This document shows positions 3,028 to 11,377 of a stretch of 64,000 bases of DNA, one piece after another. The first letter of the stretch is position 1; the number at the start of each line of letters is the position of its first letter. The notes under the pieces were generated by a model. The model was not told where the DNA came from, did not search any database, and saw only the letters and a program-made list of their open reading frames with translations. The position numbers and the translations under genes are program-made. The stretch is from Candidatus Sulfotelmatobacter sp. (lineage in GTDB: Bacteria; Acidobacteriota; Terriglobia; Terriglobales; Acidobacteriaceae), in the NCBI GenBank assembly GCA_030041475.1, contig JASHNU010000038.1:62001-126000 (forward strand), in the 5' to 3' direction.

Positions 3028-3573
3028 ATGCAGAGAACAGGCTTTGGGGTTCTGGCTGCGGCGTTGTTGCTGATCGCCTCTGCCGGCCTTTTCGCGCAGG
3101 ATGCCGCCATGCCCAAGGTCGGCGACATGGCGCCTGATTTCACACTGAAATACTTCGACGGCACGGAGCGCAAGGACGTAAAGCTCAGCGATTTCCGCGG
3201 CAAGAAAAATGTCGTGCTGGCTTTCTACGTGTTCGCTTTCACCGGGGGTTGAACCAAGCAGATGCAGGCCTTCCAGCAGAACCTGAAGACTCTGGAGGCG
3301 GCCGACACCCAGGTTCTGGGTGTGAGCATGGACAGTTGGTTCTCGAACAAAGCCTTCGCCGACAAAATTGGAGTCACCTTCCCGCTGCTCAGCGATTGGG
3401 GCGGCAAAGTCACGCGCGAGTACGGCATCTACAAAGACGAATACCAAGCGGCGCGCCGCGTCAATTTCCTGATCGGCAAAGACGGCAGGATCATGGAGGA
3501 GCAAGTCGACAAGGACGCGATCGATCCGACGAAGATCGTGGACGCCTGCGCCCGACCAAAGATGAAGAACTGA
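3028..3573 (+). CDS. Exported peroxiredoxin (AhpC/TSA family) with in-frame TGA, probable selenoprotein
   Basis: The ATG at 3028 follows a GGGGGGAG ribosome site at 3016-3022. Residues 1-24 form a signal peptide ending near LFAQDA. A thioredoxin-fold peroxiredoxin follows: [30 protein letters not shown], then [17 protein letters not shown]. The TGA at 3250-3252 is codon 75, exactly where this family carries its peroxidatic cysteine (FTxxCTKQ). The frame continues with family sequence ([34 protein letters not shown]) for 106 more codons to TGA at 3571. Reading the TGA as selenocysteine gives a complete 181-residue protein. It would reduce peroxides in the periplasm. A Cys near the C-terminus (VDACARP) could resolve the selenenic acid. 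The alternative is a Cys TGC-to-TGA nonsense mutation. Selenocysteine insertion genes are not in the window. Confidence 0.85.
3250..3303 (+). promoter_or_regulatory. Candidate bacterial SECIS hairpin after the in-frame UGA
   Basis: Fourteen bases after the UGA (3250-3252) an imperfect stem can form. GGCC at 3267-3270 pairs with GGCC at 3300-3303, and UUCCAG at 3271-3276 pairs with CUGGAG at 3292-3297 (one G-U pair). There is a 2-base bulge (3298-3299) and a 15-base loop (3277-3291). Position and size suit the bacterial arrangement, where the SECIS lies inside the coding region just after UGA. No energy calculation was done, and the large loop is not a textbook E. coli fdhF loop. Confidence 0.5.
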
Positions 3574-3631: not shown

Positions 3632-3785
3632 GCCCCTGAACCCTACCACCAGCCAACGGCTTCCATTCGCGGCGGAAACTAAACCGTCTCTACTGTGTTT
3701 ACAAGAGAGCAGGTAAGATCAATGGCGAGAAATCCGCACAATTAAAATGAAGGTAGACAAATTTCCATCGCATTGGGGCGAAGAC

Positions 3786-5822
3786 ATGAAAAGACGCAAG
3801 TGGTCCGCATTGATGATTCTACTGGCGAGCTTTGCATTTGCTTTGCAGGTTTCGACCATCGCAAAGGCGCAAGATGAATACGACGATCAGAGCCAGGATC
3901 CTCCGGGCCGCGTAGGGCGGATGGATTTTTCCGAGGGCTCGGTTTCGTTCCGTCCGGCCGGAGAAGACGACTGGGTCACGGCGGTGCCCAACCGGCCAAT
4001 CGTGACCGGCGACGATCTCTGGACCGACAACGATTCGCGCGCCGAAGTCCATGTGGGCTCGGCGGCGATCCGCATGGGCCAGAGGACCGGCATCACTTTC
4101 CTTACGCTCGATGACAACAACACGCAGATTCGCTTGGCGCAGGGAAGCATCATCGTGCGCGTGCGCCACGTGGATGACGACGACACTTACGAGATCGACA
4201 CTCCGAACATCGCGTTCACGCTGCTGCAGCCCGGCGAATACCGCGTCGACGTGAGTGAAGATGGAAGCCAGACGATCACAGAGGTGTTTCATGGTCGCGG
4301 CCACGTCACCGGCGGGGGTTTCACCTATAACGTGATCGCCGGTCAGTCGGCCAGTTTCACCGGCAGCGATCATCTGGATTACGACTTGGAGCAGCTTCCT
4401 TCTCAGGATGACTTCGACGGATGGGCTTTTGACCGCGATGCGCGTGAGGACGAAGCCGACTCAGCCAATTATGTTTCGCGCGAAATGACCGGCTATGAAG
4501 ATCTCGACCAATACGGCAGCTGGAGCTACCAGCCGGGTTACGGCGAGTGCTGGCAGCCGGTGGGCGTGGTTGTGGGCTGGGCTCCCTATCGCTTCGGGCA
4601 CTGGGTTTGGGTGGGGCCGTGGGGCTGGACCTGGGTGGAAGACGAGCCCTGGGGATTCGCTCCGTTCCACTATGGCCGCTGGGCCTTCGTTAACGGCGGA
4701 TGGTTCTGGGTGCCGGGCCCGGTCGTAGTGCGGCCGGTGTGGGCGCCCGCACTGGTGGCATTTGTTGGCGGCGGGCCGGGTTTCCGCTTCTCTGCAGGAG
4801 TAGGTGTGGGATGGTTCCCGTTAGGGCCGGGTGAGGTTTACGTTCCCGGATACCGCGTGAGCCGCGCCTATGTGAATAACGTGAACATCACCAACACGAC
4901 GGTAAATGTTACGCGGGTCACGAACGTCTACAACACGGTGATCGTGAACAAGACGACCATCACGAACGTCACCTACGTCAACCAGCGTGTGAACAACGCG
5001 GTAACCGTCGTGTCGCATGATGCCTTCGTGAACGCGCGGCCGGTGTCGCAGAACATCATGAAGGTGCAACCGCAGGAAATCGCCTCGGCGCCGGTTTCGC
5101 ATGTGATAGCGGCGGAGCCGGTGCATTCGAGTGTGGTGGGCGTGGGGCGCCCGGTTCAGGCGCGCCCGCCGGCGACAGTCATGAGCCGGCAGGTGGTCGC
5201 GGTCAGGACGCCTCCCGCGCCTCCGCAGTCCATTGCGCAACGCCAGGCGCAAGCCAGTGGGCACCTGAATCAGCAGGCACTGTTTCGTCCGGCAGGCGCA
5301 TCGCAGGCTGCGCCAGTTCAGGCCGGGGCGAACCAGGCCGGGACGAACCAGGCCGGGACGAACCAGGGAAGGCCAGCGCAGACGCAGGCAGGCTTCCGAT
5401 CGTTCGGTCAGCCTGGAGGTCAGCCCGCCAATACGAGCCAACCCGCAAATGCGAACAACAGCCAGGTGAAGCCGATGCTCAGGCCGCAGCCCCGCGTCTA
5501 TGAGCAGCAGGGGCCGTCACCGGAAAACGAGAGCCGTGGCGGGGTGCAGCAGTTCGGTACACCGCGCCAGGAGGCCAATGTGCAGGCCGGTCGGCAGCAA
5601 GGTGAGCAGGCGAATCAGCAGCAGAGATCTGCGCAACCGGAGTCGCATCCTCTGGTGAAGCCGGCGCCGCCGGTGCAGGAACGCAGCCCGCAGCAGGAGC
5701 AGCAGCAGGCCCAGAAGTTCAACCAGTGGCAACAACAGAGGCCCGCTCCCGCTCCCGCGCCAAAGCCGCAGTCGCATCCGGCACCGGCGCCGAAGGCGAG
5801 CTCTCCGCCGAAGAATCACTGA
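3786..5822 (+). CDS. Exported FecR-domain protein with Trp/Tyr-rich DUF6600-like region (paralog A)
   Basis: A 678-residue protein from the ATG at 3786, chosen because MKRRKW starts a clean signal peptide (hydrophobic to about residue 25, then KAQDE); the frame is open 13 codons further upstream. Residues about 40-190 resemble a FecR fold (VGRMDFSEGSVSFRPAG, LAQGSIIVRVRH, DTPNIAFTLLQPGEYRVDV). Residues about 235-340 are packed with Trp, Tyr and Gly (YGSWSYQPGYGECWQP, WAPYRFGHWVWV, WGFAPFHYGRWAF), typical of DUF6600. An Asn/Thr/Val-rich stretch and a long Gln/Pro-rich low-complexity tail follow. It is likely secreted or surface-bound; the function is unknown. It precedes a two-component pair, and a paralog with the same architecture lies at 8993-11377. 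Confidence 0.8.
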   Translation: MKRRKWSALMILLASFAFALQVSTIAKAQDEYDDQSQDPPGRVGRMDFSEGSVSFRPAGEDDWVTAVPNRPIVTGDDLWTDNDSRAEVHVGSAAIRMGQRTGITFLTLDDNNTQIRLAQGSIIVRVRHVDDDDTYEIDTPNIAFTLLQPGEYRVDVSEDGSQTITEVFHGRGHVTGGGFTYNVIAGQSASFTGSDHLDYDLEQLPSQDDFDGWAFDRDAREDEADSANYVSREMTGYEDLDQYGSWSYQPGYGECWQPVGVVVGWAPYRFGHWVWVGPWGWTWVEDEPWGFAPFHYGRWAFVNGGWFWVPGPVVVRPVWAPALVAFVGGGPGFRFSAGVGVGWFPLGPGEVYVPGYRVSRAYVNNVNITNTTVNVTRVTNVYNTVIVNKTTITNVTYVNQRVNNAVTVVSHDAFVNARPVSQNIMKVQPQEIASAPVSHVIAAEPVHSSVVGVGRPVQARPPATVMSRQVVAVRTPPAPPQSIAQRQAQASGHLNQQALFRPAGASQAAPVQAGANQAGTNQAGTNQGRPAQTQAGFRSFGQPGGQPANTSQPANANNSQVKPMLRPQPRVYEQQGPSPENESRGGVQQFGTPRQEANVQAGRQQGEQANQQQRSAQPESHPLVKPAPPVQERSPQQEQQQAQKFNQWQQQRPAPAPAPKPQSHPAPAPKASSPPKNH

Positions 5823-8873: not shown

Positions 8874-8992
8874 TTTCTCTTAGCAAGAGATTTCCCCAAA
8901 TGCGGGTTCATAGAGTTGGGTCACAAAATCTCGGGCAAGCTTTCATGACAAGAGATTCCGGATCACGAGTTATTGGCGAGTCGAGGTGGGTT

Positions 8993-11377
8993 ATGAAAAC
9001 GAGACTTTTTTCAGCCTTCGCAATCTTAACGCTGGCTCTGGCCGGCGTGTTCACAGTCAGCGCGTTTGCGCAAACCACACAGGAAACTCCAGCGCCCACG
9101 GATCAGCCTAGCGCTCCCATGGAGATCGGCACATCGCAGGGCCCGCAAGGTCCGGACGCCCAACCCGCGCCCGCTGAGCCGCAGGGTGACGCGCAGCCCA
9201 TGCAGACTCCGCCGGATTCTGACTCTCAGCCGGCAGAGGCTCAGCCGGGCGGGCCAACGGGCGAGGCTCCGGCGAAGACCGACCTGGGCGTGGGCCGAAT
9301 CAGCCTGATTCATGGCGACGTTTCCACACAGCGTGGCGATTCCGGCACCTGGTCGGCCGCAACTCTGAATCAGCCGGTGATGGGCGGCGACAAAATCTCG
9401 ACCGCTGGCGGCGCGCGCACCGAGGTCGAACTCGATTTTGCCAATGTCCTTCGCCTGGGCACGAATTCCAAAGCCAACATTGCCACCTTCACACACAAAG
9501 ACATTCAGATTCAGTTGGCGCAGGGCATCGCCTCATATTCAGTCACCAAAGACAGCGAGGCCGAGCCTGAGATCGACACTCCGAACGTGTCGGTGCATCC
9601 CGCGCATCGTGATGGCGTGTTCCGGATCGAAGTCCGTGCCGACGGTGACACGATCGTGATCGTACGCAAGGGCGAGGCGCAGATTTCCACGCCGCAGGGC
9701 TCGACCGAGATCCATCAGGGTGAACAGGCGACGATCCGCGGTGACTCCAACTCGGCGCAGTACAAGATCGATCAGGCTCCCGCTCCCGACGACTGGGATC
9801 GCTGGAACGCCGACCGCGATTACATGATCCGCAACGCGCAGTCCTGGCGCCACACCAACCGTTACTACACCGGAACGCAGGATCTCGACGCGTATGGCAA
9901 CTGGCAGAACGTGCCCGATTACGGCGACGTGTGGGTTCCGAACGAGCCGACGGGCTGGGCGCCGTATCGCGACGGGAGCTGGACCTACGAGCCGTACTAC
10001 GGCTGGACCTGGGTCGGCTATGAGCCGTGGGGTTGGGCACCGTATCACTATGGCCGCTGGTTCTGGTGGAATGGTGGCTGGGCATGGTGGCCGGGACCGG
10101 CATGGGGCTGGTACCGTCCGTTCTGGGCGCCGGCCTACGTTTCGTTCTGGGGATGGGGAGCGGGCTTTGGCTTCGGATTCGGCTGGGGCGGTTGGGGCGG
10201 CTTCGGCTGGCTCCCGCTCGGACCCTGTGACTGGTTCCATCCGTGGTGGGGTGGATATGCTGGCCGCTTTGGCTGGATCGGCCACGGTTGGGGATACGAC
10301 CGCTTTGGCGGGTTGGCGCCGCTGCATGCTGGAGCGCGATTCTCGAACGTGGCGAACATTCATGATCCGCACATCGGTGGAGCGCTCTCCACCGTGCGCG
10401 CCGGAGCGTTTGGCACCGGTGGCCGCGTAGCGGCAACGGCAGCGACTCGCGAACAGATTGGCGGCGCGCGCATGATGGCGGGGAACCTACCGGTTACGCC
10501 GACACGCGCAAGCTTGTCGGCCAGTGGACGCCCAGCGGCGGCATCCACCATGCACAGTGGCGGCGCGGAACACTTCTTTGGCTCAACCCACGCGAATGCG
10601 GCGCATCCGGAATCGTTTGGCCAGCAGGTTTCGCATCTGCAGCAAAGCATGGCGCAGAACCACGTGAGCGGATTCAACGCCGGCAGTCGCGGCACCGAAA
10701 CGGCCTCGCGCGGCGGATTTGGCTCCAGCGGCGAGAAGCCGAGCGCCGGGATGGGCAATCGCGAGGTGGGCAACGTCGGGAACCGCAGCGGCTCGTCGGC
10801 TGGCAACGGCAGACTTGACAACGGCAGCCGCGGCAGCGAGCGTGCCTTCACGCCGCCGAACAGCGGCAACACCCGGTCGTCGCTGGAAGGCGAGCGGGGC
10901 GGGGCTTCGTCTTCGGCCAGCCGCGACGGATTCCGTCCCTTTACTCCGCCTTCGCACAATGAAGCCTCGGGCAGTTCGTCCTATGGCAACGCGGAGCGTG
11001 GAGGGAACGGCAGCTTCTGGAACCGCACTTCGCCGGGCGCGGAGCGCAACAGCGGTACGTACTCCGACGGCTACGGCCGCGGGTCATCGTCCCGCGAATC
11101 GGCCGAGTCATCTTCGCGCGGATCGTATTCGCGTCCGCAACTCGACATGCGGCAGCCGATCGTGCGCTCGCCGTACGGTGGCGGATATTCGCGCGGCGGC
11201 TACGGTTCTGAGTCGCGGCCTGGCTATGGCGGATCGCGTCCAAGTTACGGAGGTGGATCGCACAGCGCGCCCAGCTACGGCGGCTCGCATAGCGGCGGCG
11301 GTCATGTCAGCGCGCCGCACTCCTCTGGTGGAGGTCACTCCGGTGGCGGCAGCCACGGCGGAGGCGGGCATCACTAA
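8993..11377 (+). CDS. Exported FecR-domain protein with Trp/Gly-rich DUF6600-like region (paralog B)
   Basis: A 794-residue protein. The ATG at 8993 was chosen over the longer frame because GAGGTGG (8983-8989) gives a ribosome site and MKTRLFSAFAILTLALAG starts a signal peptide cut near SAFAQ. A Pro/Gln-rich spacer precedes a FecR-like region (residues about 100-245, VGRISLIHGDVSTQRG, LAQGIASYSVTK, DTPNVSVHPAHRDGVFRIEV). Residues about 285-430 are extremely rich in Trp, Tyr, Gly and Pro (YGWTWVGYEPWGWAPYHYG). The C-terminal half is Gly/Ser-rich low complexity ending in a Gly/His-rich tail (HSGGGSHGGGGHH). It probably forms an extracellular or outer-membrane-linked, repetitive structure; function unknown. 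Expression is probably controlled by the upstream sigma-54 system. It shares its architecture with the 3786-5822 product. Confidence 0.82.
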   Translation: MKTRLFSAFAILTLALAGVFTVSAFAQTTQETPAPTDQPSAPMEIGTSQGPQGPDAQPAPAEPQGDAQPMQTPPDSDSQPAEAQPGGPTGEAPAKTDLGVGRISLIHGDVSTQRGDSGTWSAATLNQPVMGGDKISTAGGARTEVELDFANVLRLGTNSKANIATFTHKDIQIQLAQGIASYSVTKDSEAEPEIDTPNVSVHPAHRDGVFRIEVRADGDTIVIVRKGEAQISTPQGSTEIHQGEQATIRGDSNSAQYKIDQAPAPDDWDRWNADRDYMIRNAQSWRHTNRYYTGTQDLDAYGNWQNVPDYGDVWVPNEPTGWAPYRDGSWTYEPYYGWTWVGYEPWGWAPYHYGRWFWWNGGWAWWPGPAWGWYRPFWAPAYVSFWGWGAGFGFGFGWGGWGGFGWLPLGPCDWFHPWWGGYAGRFGWIGHGWGYDRFGGLAPLHAGARFSNVANIHDPHIGGALSTVRAGAFGTGGRVAATAATREQIGGARMMAGNLPVTPTRASLSASGRPAAASTMHSGGAEHFFGSTHANAAHPESFGQQVSHLQQSMAQNHVSGFNAGSRGTETASRGGFGSSGEKPSAGMGNREVGNVGNRSGSSAGNGRLDNGSRGSERAFTPPNSGNTRSSLEGERGGASSSASRDGFRPFTPPSHNEASGSSSYGNAERGGNGSFWNRTSPGAERNSGTYSDGYGRGSSSRESAESSSRGSYSRPQLDMRQPIVRSPYGGGYSRGGYGSESRPGYGGSRPSYGGGSHSAPSYGGSHSGGGHVSAPHSSGGGHSGGGSHGGGGHH

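Follow-up and report, generated by a model that had tools for sequence, protein, structure and literature searches.

Within the window, as we call the whole 64,000-nucleotide stretch of Candidatus Sulfotelmatobacter DNA analysed here, a peroxiredoxin frame carries a TGA where the catalytic cysteine would be expected. The question that this locus raises is whether the codon is read as selenocysteine (Sec) and, if so, which signal in the RNA would direct the reading. At the level of the protein, the features concerned are:

3028..3573, + strand: predicted selenocysteine peroxiredoxin gene, with Sec at codon 75 (translation, domain, relatives, structure alignment)
3250..3252, + strand: UGA predicted to be read as Sec, at the position of the peroxidatic Cys (translation, structure alignment, codon-usage scan, relatives)
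3547..3549, + strand: codon of Cys174, the sole other Cys of the mature protein and likely the resolving Cys (relatives)
3028..3099, + strand: probable N-terminal export signal, residues 1-24 (sequence, with the boundary set by eye; hydropathy test on relatives)

Translation of 3028-3573 gives 181 codons that end at a terminal TGA (3571-3573) and hold a single internal TGA, codon 75, in agreement with the earlier note, which had described a frame interrupted at 3250-3252 alone. That note had also recognised peroxiredoxin sequence on both sides of the TGA and placed the codon at the catalytic Cys, and both points hold: the two flanks fall within one AhpC-TSA domain (PF00578, residues 31-156, E 1.4e-35, 122.4 bits against a curated cut-off of 26), and, with U entered as C in the alignment, residue 75 coincides with the catalytic Cys of solved peroxiredoxins (AFTGG-C-TKQM against AFTQV-C-TKEM in 2ywn). 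The best solved relatives are 2ywn (E 8.3e-23) and the AhpE protein Rv2238c (3e-19 to 7e-19). An in-frame UGA at the position of a catalytic Cys, one criterion for a bacterial selenoprotein, is thus present. We also searched the 64 kb in all six frames, by codon usage and under thresholds that we set ourselves, for TGA codons flanked on either side by 45 or more coding-like codons, and 3250-3252 was the sole site returned. Searches of the same 64 kb gave nothing above threshold with Rfam and no tRNA with ARAGORN, and an AlphaFold model built from 16 sequences was set aside (mean pLDDT 45.8). Elsewhere in the window, two long exported-looking proteins (3747-5822 and 8900-11377) have similar Trp/Tyr-rich stretches and low-complexity tails, and are perhaps paralogues.

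The genome from which the window comes (4,632,274 bases in 112 contigs, 99.56% complete and 1.17% contaminated) was searched for selA, selB, selD and tRNA-Sec, and all four are present. SelA scores 561 bits (cut-off 268), SelB 350 bits (cut-off 242) and SelD 265.5 bits, or 360.2 with its neighbour included (cut-off 125), the last with a TGA in its frame. The tRNA-Sec scores 66.5 bits and has the anticodon tca according to ARAGORN, which assigned three weaker places above the tRNA-Sec cut-off to tRNA-Arg, tRNA-Leu and tRNA-Ser. The selD gene lies outside the window (G000:C112:40124-41092) and has its in-frame TGA at the catalytic position (KAAG-U-ASK); judged from its sequence, its product appears to be itself a selenoprotein, producing the selenium donor that its own synthesis requires. 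At G000:C2:30821-31753, some 500 bases separate the tRNA-Sec gene from a gene for a Cys peroxiredoxin (FTPVCTTE), and the two share a strand. Two further TGA-containing genes were seen, one for a Prx-like UxxC protein (GYW-U-PYC) on the window's own contig (L012, G000:C3:161087-161512) and one for an ANTPG-U-T peroxiredoxin (L010, G000:C50:153943-154335).

Relatives of the gene are numerous. In the family, 257 of 398 genomes match it at E <= 1e-20, and every match listed at E <= 1e-35 that spans residue 75 contains exactly one TGA; matches free of TGA start at E 8e-30, with about 39-46% identity, and several of the genomes that hold them also contain the Sec gene. Across the phylum, 67 of 396 genomes match at E <= 1e-25 in 71 places, 67 of them with one TGA, six of which belong to a paralogue (the TPVU/TPTU type discussed below), and 4 without. 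The aligned codon is TGA in 140, TGC in 19 and TGT in 2 of 161 distinct homologous genes that were fetched, a sample made up mostly of the stronger matches plus 20 weaker places picked to show Cys forms. The 21 non-TGA genes are Cys homologues with less than 50% identity, and one counted as TGC, L012, has a TGA three codons earlier. All 92 fetched relatives that span the column and are 50% or more identical to the window protein carry TGA, in otherwise open frames, the nearest named records being metagenome-assembled genomes labelled Candidatus Sulfotelmatobacter, Acidobacteriaceae or Acidobacteria (24 loci). Immediately ahead of the UGA, codon 3247-3249 is GGT in 82 of 89 orthologues. The earlier note had expected an uncommon variant, a view that did not survive this comparison, as the gene is not rare in the group and is spread over the phylum. 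A pseudogene, or a sequencing error at one codon, is hardly conceivable: nothing was found in its support, 138 distinct orthologues share the TGA and have kept both the protein around it and the C-terminal Cys, and an error is untenable because the codon recurs in many independently assembled genomes.

The gene also travels with the machinery that would decode it. The Sec gene is found in 120 of the 398 family genomes (E <= 1e-35) and SelA in 183 at E <= 1e-60 (181 over the tool's cut-off), SelA being present in 114 of the 120 genomes with the Sec gene versus 69 of the 278 without (Fisher p 1e-42, relatedness ignored). Among the remaining six, SelB is over its cut-off in five (not G073) and tRNA-Sec in five (not G107), and none is without both, so that each of the 120 has at least one Sec-machinery gene. 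This co-occurrence speaks against a TGA that acts as a real stop or is suppressed to another amino acid, a reading under which the downstream half, if made at all, would come from a restart at Met79 (3262). An ATG reading frame does begin at 3262, but neither half alone is a complete peroxiredoxin, and we regard this explanation as very improbable. TGA is moreover the real stop of 46 of 91 clade orthologues with a complete end, so it has not been reassigned genome-wide. The recoding to Sec proposed in the earlier note is thus supported by the Sec machinery of the genome and by the TGA conserved in relatives; codon 75 is almost certainly decoded as Sec, an identity that is close to certain short of chemistry.

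The rest of the protein is consistent with a Sec enzyme of a particular design. Exactly one Cys follows the Sec in 137 of 137 complete Sec genes, 97-115 residues on (99 residues in 100 of them), and the mature part, from residue 26 on, has no other Cys. None of 19 Cys homologues has this C-terminal Cys, and they carry two Cys. Because the single conserved C-terminal Cys belongs to the Sec genes and is absent from the Cys homologues, the comparison suggests a Sec-Cys selenenylsulfide mechanism in which Cys174 is probably the resolving residue. In the PxxxT(S)xxC/U motif, the Thr/Ser is Thr in 136 and Ser in 2 of 138 Sec genes, and the Pro is replaced, by Val68 in the window protein; over the 138 genes that column holds Val or Ile in 126, Pro in 10, Phe in 1 and Ser in 1. 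Arg144, near the place expected for the active-site Arg, is invariant in 89 of 89 orthologues, and its alignment suggests that it is the catalytic Arg of peroxiredoxins. By a crude hydropathy test, 109 of 138 distinct Sec genes encode a hydrophobic N-terminus, the 29 misses including several with start codons placed by our script inside the signal peptide and one contig-end fragment; export, as the earlier note had it, is plausible and in our judgement highly likely.

Among known enzymes, the obvious comparison is with PrxU, the Sec-containing peroxiredoxin of Eubacterium acidaminophilum (NCBIfam NF040737; selenoprotein reviews list the type as ‘Prx, TxxU’). Both have the AhpC/TSA fold and Sec at the peroxidatic position of TxxU. 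Unlike PrxU, the window protein has a probable N-terminal export signal and a single C-terminal Cys about 99 residues on, and it scores 85.6 bits with the PrxU equivalog model, below the curated cut-off of 270; its family has Val or Ile for the motif Pro, and a candidate distal SECIS. The closest solved relatives by sequence, AhpE (Rv2238c) and the archaeal 2ywn/4g2e, share the AFTxxC active site, but they are Cys enzymes that keep the Pro where the window's family has Val or Ile.

If codon 75 is Sec, the signal should lie in the RNA nearby, and two hairpins were found downstream of the UGA, the least expected feature of the locus and one that the earlier note does not mention:

3271..3297, + strand: hairpin 1, UUCCAG (3271-3276) paired with CUGGAG (3292-3297) around a 15-nt loop (codon conservation, pairing tests)
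3305..3323, + strand: hairpin 2, candidate SelB-binding SECIS, ACACCCAG (3305-3312), loop GUU (3313-3315) and CUGGGUGU (3316-3323)

Counted from the U of the UGA, hairpin 1 is +22-27 with +43-48 and hairpin 2 is +56 to +74, with the family form ACACCCAG-GUN-CUGGGUGU. Synonymous sites downstream of the UGA are unusually fixed over 89 orthologues, both under hairpin 1 (Gln83 CAG 89/89, Leu89 CTG 88/89) and under hairpin 2 (Thr94 ACC 88/89, Gln95 CAG 86/89, Gly98 GGT 88/89), the loop of the latter being GUC in 54, GUU in 19, GUG in 13 and GUA in 3. Over 38 non-redundant genes, hairpin 2 forms on average 7.87 of its 8 pairs, versus 6.22 (sd 0.14, maximum 6.61 in 500 redraws) when codons are redrawn synonymously from the family's own usage. 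All 38 genes form at least 7 pairs, a number that averages 15.4 genes in the redraws and never exceeds 24 there. Hairpin 1 forms 5.87 of 6 pairs versus 5.25 (sd 0.10, maximum 5.47 in 300 redraws). Both hairpins are therefore conserved at the RNA level. In 21 Cys homologues, 3-6 of the 8 hairpin 2 pairs form. There are few compensating changes in the hairpin 2 stem because most pairs never vary.

For this element only comparative tests are informative. In the window gene, hairpin 2 has an 8-bp stem, a GUU loop and -16.3 kcal/mol; folded for this gene alone, the 51 nt after the UGA did no better than dinucleotide shuffles. Relative to synonymous shuffles, folding energy has a minimum shortly downstream of the UGA (z -1.87 at +12) and a weaker one about 60 nt before it (3190-3237, z -1.11). 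A closing helix, +13-15 with +78-80, that would make a three-way junction is paired in 87-89 of 89 genes and was discarded, two conserved Met codons explaining it.

The published bacterial model (bSECIS), in the excerpted text of PMC13188914, places the apical loop 16-37 nt from the UGA and gives it 3-9 nt with G[GU]. Hairpin 2 resembles this E. coli fdhF type in its 3-nt loop of G then U, its 8-bp stem and its location in the coding region after the UGA, but its distance from the UGA is 60 nt, outside the 16-37 of the model, and a second conserved hairpin precedes it. We mapped by position the hairpins that carry the model's G[GU] loop and reach -7.5 kcal/mol or lower. In the family, such a hairpin occurs at +62 to +67 in 38 of 39 non-redundant genes and in the canonical zone in 3; among all 91, 89 score distal and 6 canonical, and the two that are not distal (L118 and L122) have in their sequence the same hairpin shifted by one deleted codon. 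The energy scan of the window gene found no model hairpin in the canonical zone. The 24 orthologues outside the family are canonical in 16 cases and distal in 4, and at -6.5 kcal/mol 21 of the 24 are canonical versus 20% of shuffles. The energy threshold by itself was rejected as proof of hairpin 2, since a distal hairpin of -7.5 kcal/mol or better also occurs in 61% of synonymous shuffles and in 12 of 21 Cys homologues; only 7 of the 39 family genes beat their own shuffles there at p <= 0.02.

In a quick protein tree, a clade with SH-aLRT 100 (32 rows, the window's family plus one outside genome) accounts for 30 of the 34 rows scored distal, and two more of its rows score in both places. Outside it, the distal rows are the Sec orthologues L204, L205 and L209 and the paralogue L160; because these three orthologues score distal, the signal may have been relocated more than once. 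In 29 genes outside the clade, the loop of the proximal element is GGC (17), GUC (7) or GGA (5). Of these genes, 25-29 can form the five upper pairs of the element and 19-23 the four lower ones, and the element shows two-sided changes (UAUCA/UGAUA to UACCA/UGGUA, GGCG/CGCC to GGCC/GGCC). Other Sec genes of the window's genome have, read by eye, short GU-loop hairpins near the UGA (e.g., CGCGG-GUU-CCGCG in a second Sec peroxiredoxin, CCUCG-AGUUG-CGAGG in a UxxC protein), though longer minimum-energy folds did not all give them.

A second type of peroxiredoxin, mostly TPVU/TPTU (e.g., L160 and L225) and lacking the N-terminal extension, exists in TGA and Cys versions at 72 places in 68 of the 398 family genomes (E <= 1e-40), the window's genome having none at this threshold. 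Four of the matches enclose a second internal stop, two TGA or TGA plus TAA (G030:C6, G050:C1, G184:C321, G135:C3). Outside the phylum the paralogue matched 122 plasmid records, and a search of viral contigs found no relative. We compared 62 Sec and 14 Cys genes, drawn from 70 of the 72 places plus 6 from outside the family. They share the two-hairpin layout, with a different hairpin 1 sequence (e.g., GCCGGCG/CGCCGGC). Hairpin 2 tracks Sec: 6 or 7 of its 7 Watson-Crick pairs form in 62 of 62 Sec versus 2 of 14 Cys genes (62/62 versus 1/14 with an added motif rule for ‘intact’ that was picked after the sequences were seen), and the mean number of pairs is 6.77 versus 4.57. The longest run of hairpin 1 falls from 5.98 in Sec to 4.21 in Cys genes. 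In the energy scan only the distal hairpin follows Sec, because the distal place is filled in 58/62 Sec and 5/14 Cys genes and the canonical zone in 31/62 and 7/14. All Fisher and Mann-Whitney values ignore relatedness. The best tree implies at least 6 Sec/Cys exchanges, but well-supported branches carry only 2 contrasts; these take the expected direction in almost every random pairing and are too few for significance. One gene, L291, pairs U59 with A71 where near relatives have a C-A mismatch.

Hairpin 2 is likely the SelB-binding SECIS, since it has the right loop, follows Sec, and stands in genes whose canonical place is mostly empty in the clade. In the main rival, Sec insertion is directed by hairpin 1, as an atypical SECIS with a large loop, and hairpin 2 has only a helping role, such as delaying the ribosome or making the fold more stable. 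Hairpin 1 adjoins the UGA in the usual SECIS place, and its protected pairs, its fixed Gln83 and Leu89 codons and its weakening in Cys paralogue genes are what this explanation would predict; yet its 15-nt loop exceeds the 3-9 nt of the model and has no conserved G[GU], and hairpin 2 has the model's loop and discriminates Sec from Cys genes more strongly, so that we consider the alternative unlikely.

The reading that we prefer, and find very probable as a whole, is that of an exported Sec peroxiredoxin, served by the cell's own Sec system through a two-hairpin signal whose hairpin 2 is bound by SelB. SelA, SelB, SelD and tRNA-Sec of the cell would decode the UGA as Sec. Hairpin 1 would fold the intervening RNA away, its 27 nt reducing the 60-nt spacing to about 33 nt, inside the usual 16-37, and SelB would bind hairpin 2 through a GU apical loop like that of an ordinary bacterial SECIS. 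Sec75 would attack the hydroperoxide, Cys174 would resolve the selenenic acid as a selenenylsulfide and a periplasmic thiol reductant would regenerate the enzyme. More broadly, we lean towards the view that Acidobacteriota use a second bacterial SECIS class, with tandem hairpins and a loop about 60 nt after the UGA, in two peroxiredoxin paralogues, and that the signal of the FTGGU type, mostly proximal elsewhere, has shifted downstream by about 37 nt in the clade to which the window belongs.

Sec peroxiredoxins are an established kind of selenoprotein in the excerpted texts of PMC13188914 and PMC9312934, and atypical SECIS elements as such are known, because the first of these excerpts notes that some bacterial elements break the bSECIS model. 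A 2006 survey, as excerpted, counted 4 selenoproteins of 3 families in Acidobacteria (PMC1794560), and deep-Sep, according to the excerpt of PMC12013277, was tested on Occallatibacter riparius, with 3 known selenoproteins; the window gene itself may already be in print among the Acidobacteria selenoproteins so counted. Among the papers that literature searches returned, titles and opening lines of abstracts point to none on this gene in Acidobacteriota or on a two-hairpin bacterial SECIS. With the Sec peroxiredoxin known, the displaced bipartite SECIS would be new. Programs that find bacterial selenoproteins with the SECIS model take the spacing as fixed, and such an element, if true, would explain missed genes and provide a natural test of the reach of SelB on the ribosome. 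Orthologues in related bacteria hold the signal in two places, which opens its move to comparison, and the TPVU/TPTU type (L225-L294, e.g., L247-L248 and L252-L263) is a good system for the study of Sec/Cys exchange among Acidobacteriota. The exported Sec peroxiredoxin is, finally, a candidate for the peroxide defence of soil Acidobacteriota.
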